From Aquila chrysaetos chrysaetos (Eukaryota; Chordata; Aves; Accipitriformes; Accipitridae), in NCBI RefSeq assembly GCF_900496995.4, contig NC_044010.1, positions 1,178,001-1,242,000 on the forward strand: 64,000 nt of DNA, written 5' to 3'. Numbering within the stretch: position 1 is the stretch's first letter; the number at the start of each line of letters is the position of its first letter. This document shows positions 100 through 62,200 of this stretch, piece after piece. Under the pieces are notes generated by a model that was given only the letters and a program-made list of their open reading frames with translations, was not told the DNA's origin and did not search any database. The position numbers and the translations under genes are program-made.

Positions 100-12925
<12,826 letters not shown>

Positions 12926-16200: not shown

Positions 16201-18691
16201 CTTCCCGCTCCCTGAGGTAGGATCCTGCCCTGCTCGTGTCTTTGCTGACTGACGAGGATTTGGCTGCCTCCCCGGTCTTAATTTTTATCTCTATTCTCTG
16301 TCCCTTCTTTCATCCAGCTGATAAACTTTCTGGAAGCCAATGAGGTTCCCCGCCCTGTGACCATTCGCACCAACACACTGAAGACGCGGCGACGGGACCT
16401 GGCGCAGGTGAGCAGGAACCCGTGGTTATCTCCTGCGCCGCCTGTCACACGGGGCGGCATCTCAGTCCCATCTCCTTGTCTTGCAGGCTCTAATCAACCG
16501 TGGCGTGAATCTCGACCCCTTGGGGAAGTGGTCAAAAACGGGACTTGTTATTTATGACTCCTCTGTGCCCATCGGTGAGATCACCCTTCCTGTCGTAGGG
16601 CTGAGCTGACCCGCTCTTGGCTCCCGTTCTTTCATGTGTCATCTTCTTTTGTTCTGCCTTCCCTGCCCAGGTGCCACCCCTGAGTACCTGGCTGGGCACT
16701 ACATGCTGCAAGGAGCCTCCAGTCTCCTCCCTGTCATGGCTCTGGCTCCGCAGGAAAACGAACGCATCCTGGATATGTGTTGTGCCCCGGGAGGAAAGAC
16801 CAGCTACATAGGTACCACCCTGAAGCCTTGGGAGGGACGGATGTTCTGTGAAGTGATGGGTTTCCACTGGTCTATACAGAAAGGGGGAACAGAGGGGGAC
16901 TGAGCTCAGGGAAAGGAGGGGGGTGGCTGTCCCTACGGGCAAAAGCGCAGGAGGTTTTCAGCCCCTTGCTGATGTGTTTTGCTCTCCGGCAGCTCAGCTT
17001 ATGAAGAACACAGGTATGATCTTGGCCAACGACAGCAATGCTGAGCGGCTACGTAGCGTGGTAGGGAACTTGCATCGGCTGGGAGTCACCAATGCTGTAG
17101 TGAGTAACTGCGATGGACGCCAGTTCCCCAAGGTATGTTCCTGCCTGCTTTGGGGTGTCCTTACCGTGCTTACCTAGAGCTGCTGTGCTGTCCCTTTAGT
17201 GAAGCTGTGTTCTCCAAAGCCATTTGTCACAGGAGGATGAGCAGAGCTGCTGGGGAGTGTATTTGTTATTTGATATGGAGACAGGAAGGTGGACAGGGAG
17301 GAGTGAGAGATCTTTCCTGCCTTCCTGGTCTTCTGGTTCCCCTTCTAGTTTTGGTCTTGTTCTGAGTTCCCACCTGTGAGCATAATTCCAAATGTACATC
17401 TGCCTGTAGGTGCTTGGAGGGTTTGACCGTGTCTTGCTTGATGCTCCTTGTAGTGGAACAGGTGTCATTTCCAAGGATCCTGCTGTCAAAACCAACAAGG
17501 TAAGTGACCAGTGGGGAACAAGATGGGGACTCAAGTATATGTCATGAGAGGAAGAACTTCAGGGCAGCTTTGTTCTTGAGAGATGCCTGCAAGAGACACA
17601 CACTTTTTTTCTTTCTCTTTTTTTATTTTGCATGTTGTACCAGGGCTAGGTTTTTTAAGGTTAGCTCTGCAGAAGACTCCAGAACCTTGTATATCATATG
17701 TGCTTTGCTCTCCTGTCATTCCCCCATCCACAACAGAGGTCTGGGGTGCTTCCCTGTGCCTCTGGCATCCTAACCTATCTTTCTCTTTCAGGATGAGAAA
17801 GACATCCTGCGCTGTGCTCACCTGCAGAAGGAGCTGATTCTTAGCGCTATTGATTCGGTCAATGCTGCCTCAGAGACGGGGGGCTACATTGTCTACTGCA
17901 CTTGCTCCATCATGGTAAGTCCCCTCCACGCTCCGCTGCGATCATCTGCTACTCAGGGGACTGGTGAGCTTTGGATCCTAATGCTTAGTCTCTGGCAGGT
18001 GGAGGAGAACGAGTGGGTTGTGGATTATGCCCTGAAGAAACGCAACGTTCGTTTGGTGGCCACAGGCCTGGACTTTGGCAAGGAAGGCTTCACCAGGTGC
18101 GTGCCAGGTCACACCTGCACAGGTGACTGTTCCTTTAGTGGCCAGGTTTGAGCAAAGGCGTTCTGTCACTTCTCACCCCACTTCCTCCTCCAGGTTCAAG
18201 GACCGTCGCTTCCACCCCTCCCTCAAGTCTACGCGGCGTTTCTATCCCCACACGCACAATATGGATGGGTTCTTCATTGCCAAGTTCAAGAAATTCTCTA
18301 ATGCCATCCCCCAGGCACAAAAAGGTAACCTAGTGCTGGCGCTCAGCCGAGCTGCCTGGGCCTGCTCTCACAGGCTGCTTCCCCTGCAGAAGCCATGCAA
18401 GTTCTTCTTACAGCACCTTTCTCTCTCGTTTCAGATGAAGAACCTGCTGTGAAAGCAGCAACTCCGTCTGCTGTCCCTGATACCACCGTCAGGGAGCCTC
18501 AGACAAAAAAGAGGAAACTTGAGGGATCAAAAGTTGACAAAGAGCAGAAGCCGCCACAGCCTGCTTTGAAGAAGAGACGTTCATTGCAGGCACAGAGGAG
18601 ACCATTGAAGGCTGGCCGTCCTTCTCCCAAAATGATGCGTCCTCAAGTCCCTACCAAGAAGAAGCATAGAGTGAAGCTGAACGGACAGTGA
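13254..18691 (+). CDS. NOP2: NOP2, nucleolar 28S rRNA (cytosine-C5) methyltransferase (p120/NSUN1)
   Basis: SAM-dependent m5C methyltransferase of 28S rRNA and 60S assembly factor in the nucleolus. Sixteen coding exons, 705 residues: 13254-13359, 13450-13495, 13576-13691, 14270-14538, 14835-14878, 15041-15219, 16017-16216, 16318-16407, 16487-16574, 16671-16811, 16993-17132, 17410-17499, 17792-17914, 17999-18096, 18194-18324, 18435-18691. The start MGRKLDP plus a basic stretch matches human NOP2. The N-terminus is Lys/Arg-rich, then acidic ([11 protein letters not shown]). The RsmB-type domain has the SAM motif [12 protein letters not shown] (exon 10), DAPCSGTG with one catalytic cysteine (exon 12) and YCTCSI with the second (exon 13). 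The Lys-rich C-tail is shorter than in human (about 810 residues in all). The intron after exon 6 is U12-type AT-AC. Exon 3 carries a GGA-repeat Gly run. Confidence 0.95.
15220..16016 (+). other. NOP2: U12-type AT-AC intron of NOP2
   Basis: No GT-AG pair joins exons 6 and 7 in frame at the family boundary. The intron instead starts ATATCCTTTTT at 15220, a perfect minor-spliceosome 5' splice site, and ends ...TTTCTAC at 16016. A TTCCTTAA branch-site motif lies at 15997-16004, about 12 nt before the terminal AC, as expected for U12 introns. Joining 15219 to 16017 keeps phase (exons 5-7 total 423 nt) and restores the family reading into [11 protein letters not shown]. Human NOP2 (P120) intron F is the classic AT-AC intron used in U12 splicing work, so this is the conserved orthologous intron. 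Confidence 0.93.
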
Positions 18692-26321: not shown

Positions 26322-29260
26322 TTTGGGGGGTGTCCAGTGAGGATAACGAGGGGGTTTCGGGGGTGCAGAGGGAAAGCCATGCCATTTTTAAAGGGGGGGG
26401 GGGTGTCCAGTGAGGATAACGAGGGGGGCTGCGGGGGTGCAGAGGGAAAGCGATGCTGTTTTTAAAGGGGGGGGGGATGTCCAGTGAGGATAACGAGGGG
26501 GGCTGCGGGGGTGCAGAGGGAAAGCGATGCTGTTTTTAAAGGGGGGGGGGGATGTCCAGTGAGGATAACGAGGGGGGCTGCGGGGGTGCAGAGGGAAAGC
26601 GATGCTGTTTTTAAAGGGGGGGGGGGGATGTCCAGTGAGGATAACGAGGGGGGGGCTTCGGGGGTGCAGAGGGAAAGCAATGCTGTTTTTAAAGGGGGGG
26701 GGATGTCCAGTGAGGATAACGAGGGGGTTTCGGGGGTGCAGAGGGAAAGCGATGCCGTTTTTAAAGAGGGGGGGATGTCCAGTGAGGATAACGAGGGGGG
26801 CTTCGGGGGTGCAGAGGGAAAGCGATGCCGTTTTTAAAGGGGGGAGGGATGTCCAGTGAGGATAACGAGGGGGGCTTCGGGGGTGCAGAGGGAAAGCGAT
26901 GCTGTTTTTAAAGGGGGGAGGGATGTCCAGTGAGGATAACGAGGGGGGCTTCGGGGGTGCAGAGGGAAAGCGATGCTGTTTTTAAAGAGGGGGGGGATGT
27001 CCAGTGAGGATAACGAGGGGGGCTTTGGGGGTGCAGAGGGAAAGCAATGCTGCTTTTAAAGGGGGGACGGATGTCCAGTGAGGATAACGAGGGGGGCTTC
27101 GGGGGTGCAGAGGGGAAAGCGATGCCGTTTTTAAAGAGGGGGGGATGTCCAGTGAGGATAACGAGGGGGGGGCTTTGGGGGTGCAGAGGGGAAAGCGATG
27201 CTGTTTTTTAAAGGGGGGGGGGGATGTCCAGTGAGGATAACGAGGGGGGCTTCGGGGGTGCAGAGGGAAAGCGATGCCGTTTTTAAAGGGGGGAGGGATG
27301 TCCAGTGAGGATAACGAGGGGGGCTTCGGGGGTGCAGAGGGAAAGCGATGCCGTTTTTAAAGAGGGGGGGGATGTCCAGTGAGGATAACGAGGGGGGCTT
27401 CGGGGGTGCAGAGGGAAAGCCACGCCGTTTTTAAAGAGGGGGGGATGCCCAGTGAGGATAACGAGGGGGGGGCTTTGGGGGTGCAGAGGGAAAGCGATGC
27501 TGTTTTTAAAGGGGGGGGGGGGATGTCCAGTGAGGATAACGGGGGGGGGCTTTGGGGGTGCAGAGGGAAAGCAATGCCGTTTTTAAAGGGGGGGGGGGTG
27601 TCCAGTGAGGATAACGAGGGGGGCTTCGGGGGGTGCAGAGGGAAAGCGATGCTGTTTTTTAAAGGGGGGAGGGATGTCCAGTGAGGATAACGAGGGGGGG
27701 GCTTCGGGGGTGCAGAGGGAAAGCGATGCTGTTTTTAAAGGGGGGAGGGATGTCCAGTGAGGATAACGAGGGGGGCTTCGGGGGTGCAGAGGGAAAGCGA
27801 TGCCGTTTTTAAAGAGGGGGGGATGTCCAGTGAGGATAACGAGGGGGGCTTCGGGGGTGCAGAGGGAAAGCGATGCCGTTTTTAAAGAGGGGGGGATGTC
27901 CAGTGAGGATAACGAGGGGGGGGCTTTGGGGGTGCAGAGGGAAAGCGATGCTGTTTTTAAAGGGGGGGGGGGGGGATGTCCAGTGAGGATAACGGGGGGG
28001 GGCTTTGGGGGTGCAGAGGGAAAGCCATGCCGTTTTTAAAGAGGGGGGGATGTCCAGTGAGGATAACGAGGGGGGGGCTTTGGGGATGCAGAGGGAAAGC
28101 GATGCTGTTTTTAAAGGGGGGGGGGGGGGATGTCCAGTGAGGATAACGAGGGGGGGGGGGCTTTGGGGGTGCAGAGGGAAAGCAATGCCGTTTTTAAAGG
28201 GGGGGGGGGTGTCCAGTGAGGATAACGAGGGGGGCTTCGGGGGTGCAGAGGGAAAGCGATGCCGTTTTTAAAGGGGGGAGGGATGTCCAGTGAGGATAAC
28301 GAGGGGGGCTTCGGGGGTGCAGAGGGAAAGCGATGCCGTTTTAAAGAGGGGGGGATGTCCAGTGAGGATAACGAGGGGGGGCTTTGGGGGTGCAGAGGGA
28401 AAGCGATGCTGTTTTTAAAGGGGGGGGGGGGGATGTCCAGTGAGGATAACGAGGGGGGCTTCGGGGGTGCAGAGGGAAAGCGATGCTGTTTTTAAAGGGG
28501 GGGGGGGGGATGTCCAGTGAGGATAACGAGGGGGGGGCTTCGGGGGTGCAGAGGGAAAGCAATGCTGTTTTTAAAGGGGGGGGGATGTCCAGTGAGGATA
28601 ACGAGGGGGGCTGCGGGGGTGCAGAGGGAAAGCGATGCCGTTTTTAAAGAGGGGGGGATGTCCAGTGAGGATAACGAGGGGGGCTTCGGGGGTGCAGAGG
28701 GAAAGCGATGCCGTTTTTAAAGAGGGGGGGTGTCCAGTGAGGATAACGAGGGGGGGGCTTCGGGGGTGCAGAGGGAAAGCGATGCTGTTTTTAAAGGGGG
28801 GGGGGGGGATGTCCAGTGAGGATAACGAGGGGGGGGCTTCGGGGGTGCAGAGGGAAAGCAATGCTGCTTTTAAAGGGGGGAGGGATGTCCAGTGAGGATA
28901 ACGAGGGGGGCTTCGGGGGTGCAGAGGGAAAGCGATGCCGTTTTTTAAAGAGGGGGGGATGTCCAGTGAGGATAACGAGGGGGGCTTCGGGGGTGCAGAG
29001 GGAAAGCGATGCCGTTTTTTAAAGAGGGGGGGATGTCCAGTGAGGATAACGAGGGGGGGCTTTGGGGGTGCAGAGGGAAAGCGATGCTGTTTTTAAAGGG
29101 GGGGGGGGGGGATGTCCAGTGAGGATAACGAGGGGGGCTTCGGGGGTGCAGAGGGAAAGCGATGCTGTTTTTAAAGGGGGGGGGGGATGTCCAGTGAGGA
29201 TAACGAGGGGGGCTTCGGGGGTGCAGAGGGAAAGCGATGCCGTTTTTAAAGGGGGGGGGG
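26322..29260. repeat. G-rich minisatellite, about 39 units of about 75 bp
   Basis: The core TGTCCAGTGAGGATAACG recurs 39 times, first at 26331 and last at 29189, spaced 71-81 bp. Each unit reads core, G-run, CTTCGG/CTGCGG/CTTTGG, GGGTGCAGAGGGAAAGC, GATGC(C/T)GTTTTTAAAG, G-run. Length variation lies almost only in the two G-runs (about 5-12 G). Every unit therefore has four or more G-tracts on the + strand and could form G-quadruplexes. Units are nearly identical, so the array is young or homogenised. Open frames through it come only from the unit often being a multiple of three and are not genes. Confidence 0.97.
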
Positions 29261-29345: not shown

Positions 29346-39462
<10,117 letters not shown>

Positions 39463-50906: not shown

Positions 50907-51118
50907 GATGTAAGGTGGTACACAAACAGATCAGTTTCTATCAGCCTCTCCACCTCCCCCAGGCTCGGGGAGAAGTTGGAGGAGTGGGGGAGACAAGGGA
51001 ACAGAACTGGCCTCTCACTGCAGGATGCAGAGCTAAGCGGTGGTGAAGAAGGGCAGGGGCTCCAACGAAGGAGAGTCCTGCTTCCCTAGGCAGCAGGGGG
51101 GCTGGCTGTGTGCTCGGC

Positions 51119-54441
<3,323 letters not shown>

Positions 54442-57318: not shown

Positions 57319-57387
57319 CTAACACCCCAAACCGCTGAAGGTCCCGATCCGGTCCAGTTTCAGCCCAAAGCAGCCCCTGGGCACGGC
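57319..57387 (-). other. Mature natriuretic peptide segment (22 residues) plus stop
   Basis: Codes AVPR followed by the 17-residue disulfide ring between two cysteines, with the invariant FGLKLDRIG core. It is preceded by Lys at the position where human CNP-22 is released. A longer form could be cut after SRK upstream. Confidence 0.8.
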
Positions 57388-59196
57388 CTTCCAGGCCCAA
57401 TCTCCAGGCAGTGCCCATTTGCGACTGGCGAGGGTCTTGCGCCAGAGAGAGGGACGGGCAGCTTTAGCCCCAGACGGGAGCAAGGGGAGGGTGGAGGAGA
57501 GAAACTGGGGGCCGAAGCTGGACCCCTCCTTCGTGTCCTCTTCGGCCAGCGTGGACTCGGGCTCCAGGGGCAGCAACTGGGAAAGGAGCATCTGGGATAA
57601 AGAGAGGAGAAGGGGGTGAGAGCGGGGTCGCCTGTGCTCCCGGCGATAAGCCTTGTACCCCCTCGCACCCCACTGCTCACACCTTCCTTAGGGCTCGGGC
57701 GGGACATAAAATGGTGCCAGCACGCAGGCACTGTGCCTGTGACCTTGCATCCAGACACAGGGAAGGGCTAGACCGGCCCCTCCTGCAGCCCGAAATGATT
57801 TTGCTGTCCGAAAGAGCAGGCAGGCAGCTGCTGTGAGCCTCTGCCTGCCTGCAGATTGCCCTGCTCTTGTCAAACCATCCCCTCCGCATCCCCCCCCCGC
57901 CCGGTACTTGGAAGGTAACAGGCTTCAGTCCTTGCTCCTTTTGCTGATGCTGAGCACCTCCATGTGCTCAGGCTGCTGTGTGGCATCTCTTTTTTTTTTC
58001 CAGAGGGCTGGTGGGGAGGAGGGACCAGCCCCAAATACCTGCTGCTAAAGATGAGGGGGAGGCAGAAGCAGAGCAGGGGTGAGGAAGGGGGGACTCCCCA
58101 TGTGCCGGGAATCCTCTAGGTTATCTGTGCAGGCGCGTACGTGCTGATCGTACACCCCCGGCACTGCCGACAGCCTCCGGCTGTAGGGAGATGAGGGTTG
58201 GGAAGTACATCGGGCGCAGCGGAGGCATGGCATGGCTGCCCAGGGAAGCAGCCTGCGGTAGCCGTTCCACATCTGTCCCTCACGTGGGTGCTGAGCTAAG
58301 GCTGAAGATGCCTTTGTGCAGCTCTTTTCGGTAGCGAGTTAATTGAAGCGGACACGGGCATCTTCAGCGAGGAGTGAAAGCGGTGAGTCATAGCAGGATC
58401 AGTCTTGTGATTTTAGTTCACGTCCTAACTACCTCCCTGCAGCTTTCCCAGGGTGACGTGAAGGCAAGGTCTTGGGGCGCAGGTTACGGTTTGAGTAAGA
58501 GGGAGCTGGGTAGATTTGAAAGCCAGAAGTATTATTGCTGTAATTGCTGAGGATAAAAGATTTACCCAAGTGAAGAAGCCCTTAGCTGGCATCCTGACCG
58601 GGGCTCTTGGCCTTAAAGAGGGGCTACCTGGGGGTAATAACGAGCTTAGGAGTGAAAATCCCGGCCTAGCAGGATGCGCCTTCCATCCGGGACGTCAGAA
58701 CCAGGCACTGAACATGATGAGGGACACGACTGTAATTTCTGGTGGCTGCTGACACAGGGCGGAGTTAGACAGGACCAGTCTCTTCACCATTAAAAGCCTC
58801 TGCAGGCAATGTGGGGAGTCCCACGGGCAGCCTGCCCCAGACCAGAGAGCACTAAAAAGCTTTTGTCTGCCCGCTGTCTTGTAATGCTGCTGCTCCTTAA
58901 GAGCTGGGTTGTGAGGATGCGGTCACCCTAGAGCTGAGGCTGTTGGACTGAAGGGGAGGGAGGGAGCGGTGGGAATAGACAGCAGCCTCCGGTAGCTGGA
59001 ATTTGGGATCACCGCTCATTCCAGGTTCAAACACGACCTCCCCAAATTGCCCCTCCGCTCCTGAAACCTCCCTCAGCTCTCTCCCAGTCCGTCCTACCTG
59101 TAGCCTCTGTCCTGGTAAGGACACGGTCTGAACGCTGGCAGAGAGCAGAACTAAGAGGAGGAAAAGCGAGCAAGGCCACGACTGGAGCCCCAGCAT
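57319..59196 (-). CDS. C-type natriuretic peptide precursor (CNP-1-like)
   Basis: Secreted hormone precursor of 123 residues; human preproCNP has 126. Exon 1 (59196-59098) encodes a signal peptide, MLGLQSWPCSLFLLLVLL then SASVQT, ending in QRLQ at phase 0 before a GTAGGA donor. Exon 2 (57591-57319) opens after TTTATCCCAG and encodes an acidic pro-region, basic pairs (WRK, SRK) and the ring GCFGLKLDRIGTFSGLGC. The TAG stop follows the last Cys directly, the CNP hallmark; ANP and BNP have a tail. A lysine precedes the last 22 residues, as before human CNP-22. The ring differs from human CNP at two positions (Thr-Phe for Ser-Met). CNP ligands act through NPR-B guanylyl cyclase (family knowledge). 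Position beside GAPDH fits the CNP-1 paralogue kept in fish and birds and missing in mammals, rather than NPPC (CNP-4); that assignment is inference. Confidence 0.88.
57592..59097 (-). other. Intron of the natriuretic peptide gene, 1.5 kb
   Basis: Phase-0 GT-AG intron splitting the signal-peptide exon from the prohormone exon. A T-run lies at 57990-57999. No further exon is needed for frame and none was recognised. Confidence 0.65.
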
Positions 59197-59279
59197 CTTC
59201 TTCTTATCCCAGGGCTTGTGGGAGGTGAGGCAGGACCTGCAGCATCCGTGTCGGATGCGGTCCCTAGCCCCTCTTCGCC

Positions 59280-59285
59280 TTTATA
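59280..59285 (-). promoter_or_regulatory. TATA box of the natriuretic peptide gene
   Basis: TATAAA on the minus strand, 84 bp before the ATG at 59196, leaving room for a 5' UTR of about 55 nt. No upstream ATG lies between. A TATA box is usual for natriuretic peptide genes. Confidence 0.7.
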
Positions 59286-59289
59286 GCTT

Positions 59290-62200
59290 TGGTTCTGGCA
59301 GGCGCCTGGCCCCCAGCTCTCTGCTGAACTACCCCCCGGAGCTCCTTAACCTTTCAGCCCTTTTGTCCAGGGTGATATATTTCAGGGTGAGCTCAGCAAG
59401 ACCCCTTCCTCTAAAGAAAAAGGACACAAAGGTGTTTACTGAGTGTCTGGGAAGATAGATGTGAGTTGAGCTGCTGCTGGCCAGGACCTGGAGGTATCTG
59501 TCAGGGTCAGGAATGGGGTGACACTTTGAAACACGTCCCAAAGGAGGATATTGAAGGCTGCATTGTATAGTGATATTGAACATACTCCTCGTAGGCAGAG
59601 TGCTGTTAATGCTATTTCTCTAATCAGCGTGAGCATGAACTACAGCTCAGCTAGTGGTAGGCACACTGCTGACTGCACAGAGCTGACACAAATGCAGCTC
59701 CGTGACAATACAGGCTTTCGTTTTTAAGATTTATATCTTGGTGAGCCGGTTGGCCTGGGAATGAAGAGCTCTTGCTGCAGAAGGTGTGTGAATTCCAGCG
59801 CTAACTCTACGGGATTTGTAGCGGTGACGGGTGTGTGGGTCTAGTACTAGCGGGCATATAACTTGCAGGCTGGTTGTCCTGAGTCACCATCTGGAGGGCC
59901 GGGCTGAGTTTCCAGAGGAACCGGCACAGAAAAGAGCTCGTCGAGGCTCAGCTTGCATTTTCTCAAGCTCAGGCGCACAATGGAAGCGGGACGGCAAGGA
60001 GCAGATTCCTACCTCCTAAATCTTCTGGCCATTAGTTCCCCCCCCGCCTTTGTTTACCTCTCCCATTTTACTGTAGTTTCTCACCAGTTGAACAAGGCAA
60101 TGAGGTCACTGTTTGGAGATCAGGGTGCAGAAGTCAGCCTGGGTGTGAAGACAGAAACTAATCAGGAAAGTTTGTCAGGGGAGAGGAATGGGGGGACTGT
60201 ACCCCAGTGCAGGATGAGTAGTGGGTGTGCTGGGGTGAGTTTAATAACACCTTCAACTTCCCTTTCTTCAGTACTGTTGCACAGAGCCGTTGGGTCAAAA
60301 CTTGACAGGCAGTGTTCTGCTGCCTGCTTTTGTTTATTTCTTTTTTAAGGAAAGAAGAAAATTAGAAAAAAGAAGTCTTTTGCAGAGATAACAAAAGTCA
60401 CAGTTCAGTTATTTGCCCTGTCTTTCTTCCTCTCCTTCCCTCCCAGCATTTTGCACTCAGAGATGCACGTTTGTGGGTCCCTTTCTTCCCTGCCCAAGGA
60501 GCCAGAAAGTTTTACGAACCGTTTTGCATCCAGTCCATGAAAAGTGAAACTTCAGTCTTCAGGCTTCAGCCCGGAGCATTGACACTGGAAGCAGAAGAGA
60601 CTTTGGACAGGTGGGGGCATCCAAGTATGTCAGCTCTACCCAATACCTGCAACCCGTGGGAGGTGCTGGTTCCAGAGCAATGCTCTGGTGATCCTGTCCG
60701 GCAGTCCCCTGTCACCGCCTCGCCTGGGCCAGCTTTCCGGGGCACGCCGGCAAATGGAGGGGCTCCCTAGGCCCCGGTTAACGGCCTCCACCAAGACATT
60801 TCATGGGGAACAGGATTACTTTCATGCCAGCTTTTTAAACTACGAAGCACAGGTGACTGCTGGAGAGTCACGGGATGTGCTGTTCACGTGGGTATTCGGA
60901 CGGGGTGCTCGTGCACAAACGGAGCGTGGGATGCGTGTGCGCAGCCAGCCCCTCTGTGTGCTGGATGCGGTAGGGTACGGTGCTTTGCGGTGTGAAAGTT
61001 TTGGAGGGGTGGGAGAGAGAGGAAGGAGGATGGGACGTGAGCACGTGTTCATCCCACATGCAAGATGTCTCAGAGGATGTTGTTCTGTACTTCCCAGTCA
61101 CATCCGACCATCCAGAAGCAGCTGAGTCAGTCCGCTAGAGTATTCATGCTCCTGGCAAGACAGCTGCAGGCAGATGCATCTCAGGTTGAACGCACCGCTT
61201 CCAGGAGTCAGCTCTTTCCTGAGTGAAAGGTAAGTATAAAAGCAACAACGCTTTGGTTTTGATAGGAAATGTAGTGGTGGTTTGATCTGGCAGCCCTCGA
61301 ACGTGGTAGCCCCCATACTGCAAGAAGAATGCCAGAAATGTGTTTGCAACTGCTCCAAATTCCAGCCCACTTGCACGCAGACTGAGCCCTGCAGGGATGG
61401 ACAGGCTCCGAGCTCTCAAGTGACCAGTCTCCTCCTTGGGTCCAGCAAAAGCTGAGGCTAGCAAGAGGGAAGGAGTGATCATTGTCCCATACCAAGCAAG
61501 AAACTTTAGAGGCTGGAGAAAAAGGTTGCAAATTTTCTTGCAGATTTGCAAATCCAGCAAAGCTCGGATAAATTGCAGGTGCTCAATGACTCAGGTGCCG
61601 TGAAGTTGCAGCTGCTCCGTGTCCCAGATCCTTGCTGGGACTGCAGTAGAACTGAATAGTTGCTCTGACATGTCCTGGCAATGACTGTGAAGTGAAGAGG
61701 CTTTGGCAGACGAGTCCCCGATTGCCCCAGTTTTCTGACTCAAATAGGTTATTGTCCTTTCCTCTCTGGTGCTAACAAGTTTCCTCTGTAAAAACCCTTC
61801 CCCCTCTGATGCTGGGGCACCGATTCTAGAGCTTGCAAGACCACTGGAAAAGTGGTCTCCTGCTGAATCACAATCAGTCTTTTACAAACAGTTGCTTATA
61901 AAGGAAAGGAGCAGGGCAACTGGAGAGTGGGAGGACTAGGAACTGGGTGCAGTACCCTGGGGGAACAACCCTTGGCCCACAGTGATGGAAAGGGCTGATG
62001 GTTGCTGCAGGCTCTAGAAGCAAGGACGATATTCACACCATTCCACTGGTACCACATGTAGGAGTTTGGAGCCCACCGCGGTCAGGAGTTCCTCAGAGAC
62101 TGGAAACGCCACTGATCTCGGCACTGACTAATCCCACTGCCTCAGAAGCGAGGGAATGGGATTACTCCTTCAGTAGCAATTCCTGGTCATCGCGGCAGCC

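Follow-up and report, generated by a model that had tools for sequence, protein, structure and literature searches.

The window analysed here is a 64-kb stretch of the genome of Aquila chrysaetos chrysaetos. On its minus strand lies a two-exon gene, here called CNP-1, whose product of 123 amino acids terminates in GCFGLKLDRIGTFSGLGC. The stop codon follows directly after the last cysteine of the ring CFGLKLDRIGTFSGLGC. The features of the window are collected in Table 1.

Table 1. Features of the window, in window positions.
Feature	Position	Strand	Remarks
SCARNA11 small Cajal body RNA	8688-8827	+	75.3 bits, gathering score 37; in the CHD4 region
Open frame with CHDCT2-domain exon	11717..12382	+	CHD-type gene, presumably CHD4
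Open frame with NOP2 exon(s)	17774..18148	+	Family match
Open frame with presumed IFFO1 exon	29602..30444	+	Filament match of 22.9 bits, below the cut-off of 40
GAPDH	51100..54441	-	Downstream of CNP-1 on the same strand; start codon read by eye, lower limit approximate
Possible poly(A) signal ATTAAA	56813..56818	-	About 500 bp past the stop codon; weak
Exon 2, coding part	57319..57591	-	Prosegment, hormone and stop codon
17-residue disulphide ring CFGLKLDRIGTFSGLGC	57322..57372	-	15 of 17 residues as in the CNP of PDB 1jdp
Probable 32-residue hormone (predicted)	57322..57417	-	Follows a dibasic RK site
Intron	57592..59097	-	Phase 0, GT-AG, 1506 bp; a corresponding phase-0 intron can be modelled in four paralogues
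Exon 1, coding part	59098..59196	-	33 codons; start codon and a hydrophobic stretch resembling a signal peptide
Candidate TATA box TATAAA	59280..59285	-	Consensus match; starts 89 bp before the start codon

Both exons of the gene are open. Exon 1 begins with an ATG at 59196 and its last codon is CAG, and exon 2 consists of 91 codons (90 residues and the stop). The splice sites are intact, with the donor CAG/GTAGGA and the acceptor TTTATCCCAG/A after a long pyrimidine tract. The stretch searched for the donor has four in-phase GT sites, and only CAG/GTAGGA has a good donor fit. Start codon and TATA are also intact; besides the TATAAA that begins at 59285, another consensus match stands at 59735. 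The ATTAAA is the sole AATAAA or ATTAAA on the minus strand between 56300 and 59300. The original prediction had joined 59098 to 57591 across a phase-0 intron, giving 123 residues with a stop after the last cysteine, and had placed a TATA box upstream. The gene model agrees with this base for base, and the TATAAA is where a TATA box was proposed.

The gene region contains one two-copy direct repeat of 26 nucleotides (77%), regarded as chance. No tRNA was found in the 64-kb window.

The product matches the Pfam family ANP (PF00212) with an E-value of 5.8e-12 and a score of 46 bits, where the cut-off is 27. In a ranking of PDB entries CNP comes best with 29.2 bits; BNP reaches 20.0 and ANP 17.1. 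Two natriuretic peptides, presumably from snake venoms, rank between CNP and BNP with 26.8 and 22.2 bits. The ring is identical to that of CNP at 15 of 17 positions, and to those of BNP and ANP at 12 of 17 each. It keeps the LKL triplet of CNP, which is important for NPR-B. A C-terminal tail after the last cysteine is absent from the window gene and from two other CNP paralogues of the genome, and present in the BNP and ANP types. The Pfam domain, the ring, the missing tail, the gene structure and the comparison of paralogues all agree with the CNP-type reading made earlier. They support the identification of the gene, as predicted from its sequence, as a C-type natriuretic peptide gene.

The ring is short, which could favour a chance motif. 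A relaxed ring pattern matches once in the six frames of the window, and in none of 100 mononucleotide shuffles. A search of the whole genome (1.23 Gb; 1233.7 Mb) scored 29 candidates, of which at least five match. All of these exceed the cut-off, and none is interrupted by a stop; match counts in the genome searches are lower bounds. A candidate signal exon is found upstream of each paralogue. Chance is contradicted by the Pfam score, the genome search and the shuffles, and this explanation, whose probability is negligible, was rejected.

The genome thus holds at least five natriuretic peptide genes. These are CNP-1 in the window, fourth of the at least five matches with 47.6 bits, a CNP-3 type (contig C6, at 6327405; ring CFGVKLDRIGSLSGLGC), a CNP-4 or NPPC type (contig C10; ring CFGLKLDRIGAMSGLGC, 16 of 17 residues identical to CNP), a BNP type (C6:6314238) and an ANP type (C6:6321010). 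The labels of the paralogues come from comparison of the ring and from the tail, and for the C6 cluster also from an adjoining CLCN6 exon. This exon matches H+/Cl- exchange transporter 6 in the PDB (E 4.4e-36), and its CBS domain falls just under the cut-off. The BNP-type peptide presumably starts like chicken BNP. A section of PMC8626375 describes such a peptide as common to parrot, chicken, tortoise and crocodile, and not to snakes.

As in the window gene, a phase-0 intron after a hydrophobic first exon, here 31-40 codons long, can be modelled in each of the four paralogues. These are sequence models, in which the first exons were hand-picked among ATG frames that contain a hydrophobic stretch, each gene offering 1 to 4 candidates, and made to end at in-phase GT sites, with phase 0 only being sought. 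Within the stretch searched there was one such site each for the CNP-3, CNP-4 and ANP types, and two for the BNP type.

The window gene is a locus distinct from both other CNP copies. The gene on C10 is similar to it in having no tail after the last cysteine and in its phase-0 intron model, and the ring of the window gene is 15/17 identical both to this paralogue and to the CNP of PDB 1jdp. However, the C10 gene has a KK pair before the ring where the window gene has none, its prosegment is different, and it lies on another contig. The CNP-3 type shares 14 of 17 ring residues with the window gene, likewise lacks a tail, and has a similar leucine-rich segment opening exon 2, but it sits in the CLCN6-BNP cluster and retains KK before the ring. 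The CNP-4-type gene, at C10:11853255-11853347 on the plus strand, has a very G+C-rich prosegment with runs of alanine, serine and glycine. Five ORFs from nine stretches flanking it were scanned against Pfam and gave no family match.

The label CNP-1 is reached by elimination, because the CNP-3 and CNP-4 types are found elsewhere in the same genome, and also from the paralogon described below. Part of PMC2873334 lists a CNP1 for chicken (UniProt A9CDT5) and for zebra finch (gene 100226912). Both carry the name C-type natriuretic peptide 1, and the window gene is likened to them by this listing. In a section of PMC8203102 the promoter region of chicken CNP1 is located on chromosome 1 at about 76.43 Mb, with p values of 0.0235 for its change in RNA-seq and 0.228 for its change in methylation. 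The window gene looks like the orthologue of this already known bird gene. Chicken GAPDH, we assume, is also on chromosome 1. The gene had been called easily missed, yet it is not new, since CNP1 is listed in two birds and RNA-seq values exist for chicken. The expectation that birds and fish keep extra CNP paralogues agrees with these listings (PMC2873334) and with a CNP-1 in zebrafish, given in a passage of PMC10454581. Overall, the window gene is very probably the avian CNP-1 gene, a working two-exon prohormone gene.

Ten ORFs of the window were scanned with Pfam; five have a family match and five have none. An address of CHD4, NOP2, IFFO1 and GAPDH had been proposed for the gene. Of this order, GAPDH, NOP2 and a CHDCT2 domain were matched, whereas the Filament match of the IFFO1 exon is below its cut-off. 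We take the CHD-type neighbour to be CHD4, and the exon with the weak Filament match to be IFFO1. Between NOP2 and IFFO1, at window positions 26325-29260, stand about 39 copies of a G-rich tandem repeat of 74 bp, with long open stretches on the minus strand.

Upstream of CNP-1, at about C7:1264000-1268500, there are open frames on the minus strand that we take to resemble NCAPD2, which would put CNP-1 between GAPDH and NCAPD2. Searches with these frames found nothing in the PDB and nothing above the cut-off in Pfam, where one ORF gave two matches to unrelated families at chance level (E about 0.02). Beyond them lies an exon of the ASC channel family, with 36.8 bits against a cut-off of 23.6. 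A literature search on synteny of CNP-1 with GAPDH, CHD4 or NCAPD2 found no relevant title.

The flanking genes bear on the age of CNP-1. Three loci of the genome carry the CHDCT2 domain: one in the window, one at C6:657,233-658,091, and one on contig C122, which has the highest score. Of 33 candidates scored with the IFFO1-type exon, the one match other than the exon itself lies at C6:7,624,855 and is 62% identical. The cluster of BNP, ANP and CNP-3 types is found at C6:6.31-6.33 Mb, about 5.7 Mb from the CHD paralogue and about 1.3 Mb from the IFFO1-type paralogue. Contig C6 makes up 54.4 of 1233.7 Mb, or about 4% of the genome. Paralogues of two flanking genes thus lie on the contig of the natriuretic cluster, which suggests a duplicated block that originated in early vertebrate duplication. 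The block is drawn from two of the flanking genes, the CHD and IFFO1 types, and just one of the two CHD paralogues (C6, not C122) fits it. Within these limits, the shared contig argues that CNP-1 is as old as the genome duplications of early vertebrates and did not arise in birds.

A different origin is suggested in part of PMC2873334, where avian CNP1 is described as an apparently avian-specific duplication. The window gene would then be a recent duplicate of NPPC or CNP-3, relocated beside GAPDH. The paralogues on C6 argue against such a duplication, being what a duplicated block predicts, and they agree with the CNP-1 that a passage of PMC10454581 reports in zebrafish. The prosegment of the window gene, compared by eye, can scarcely be aligned with that of either CNP paralogue. 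There is no second close copy among the at least five family matches in the genome. A recent duplicate is therefore very unlikely, and an early origin of CNP-1 is preferred. To our knowledge, mammals have no CNP-1; birds and fish keep it.

The cluster on C6 contains an open gene of ANP type between the BNP and CNP-3 types (C6:6321010-6321099, minus strand), with the ring CFGTRMERIGAQTGLGC and the tail NQYKAR. Its Pfam score of 37.6 bits passes the cut-off. Against the PDB its best matches are to ANP or urodilatin, with 26.3-31.3 bits for eight of the nine entries and 16.8 for the ninth, 1anp; BNP scores 22.3 and CNP 20.3. A gene model with an open signal exon followed by a phase-0 intron is possible. 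The match begins 6.7 kb beyond that of the BNP type. In alligator, according to part of PMC5940360, the probe stretches for Nppb and Nppa have the same order and are about 7 kb apart.

Nppa has been reported lost in birds, in sections of PMC5940360 and PMC8626375, the former of which has it retained in alligator, turtle and frog. The G+C content is 74% around the ANP type, compared with 45% around the BNP type and 44% around the CNP-3 type. The ANP-type gene may be the one termed renal natriuretic peptide in chicken; as stated in a passage of PMC2873334, that gene was not found in zebra finch. In birds, CELA2A is reported to lie between Nppb and CNP3. Over 50 kb, two of three short trypsin motifs are absent as exact strings, a search that an intron-split gene would escape. 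The third motif, in a loose form, matches once, near C6:6,344,783, outside the interval from BNP to CNP-3.

The window gene differs from the other CNP paralogues in its cleavage sites. The dibasic pairs before the first cysteine of its ring are RK at -23 and -17 only, and position -7 has WK where the two other CNP paralogues have KK. A dibasic KK just before the 22-residue hormone is thus absent. Such a site is usual in CNP, not defining. Since the pair before the ring is missing, processing could differ from that of the other CNP paralogues. In zebrafish, a part of PMC10454581 reports, CNP-4 has a furin site and the other three have dibasic sites. The sequence points to a hormone of 32 residues released by a cut at RK, or of 22 residues by cleavage at a single lysine. 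Without the KK site, CNP-1 may be released as the longer form.

The absent KK site is also what a decayed or unexpressed copy might show, its ring being a relic, and the gene is known here from sequence alone. This explanation is extremely unlikely, as the open exons, the intact splice sites, start codon and TATA, and the 15 of 17 CNP ring residues that have been kept all speak against it. So do the RNA-seq values for chicken CNP1 in a section of PMC8203102. A working CNP-1 gene is therefore the reading adopted here.

Natriuretic peptides are secreted as prohormones, carry a disulphide ring, and act on guanylyl cyclase receptors to produce cGMP. From what is known of the family, the signal peptide would direct the CNP-1 precursor into the secretory pathway. 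The prosegment would be cleaved either at the dibasic RK, for a hormone of 32 residues, or at a single lysine, for one of 22, and the C-terminal ring of 17 residues would be closed by one disulphide. The ring would be a local ligand, probably in brain, of NPR-B (GC-B), raising cGMP; both receptor and tissue are suggested by family knowledge. Trajanovska et al. in 2007 reportedly found chicken CNP-1 expressed in brain. The gene itself would have come down from the genome duplications early in vertebrate history.

With the window copy, a hormone gene kept by birds and fish has a clean gene model and a well-marked place in the genome. The wider gain is a set of five natriuretic genes, which includes an ANP type where its loss has been published. 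On balance, we lean towards the view that the eagle has these five genes with an open ANP type among them, that the published loss of Nppa does not hold for all birds, the gene having gone unseen in sequence of 74% G+C or corresponding to the chicken renal natriuretic peptide, and that CNP-1 is perhaps a hormone of 32 residues.
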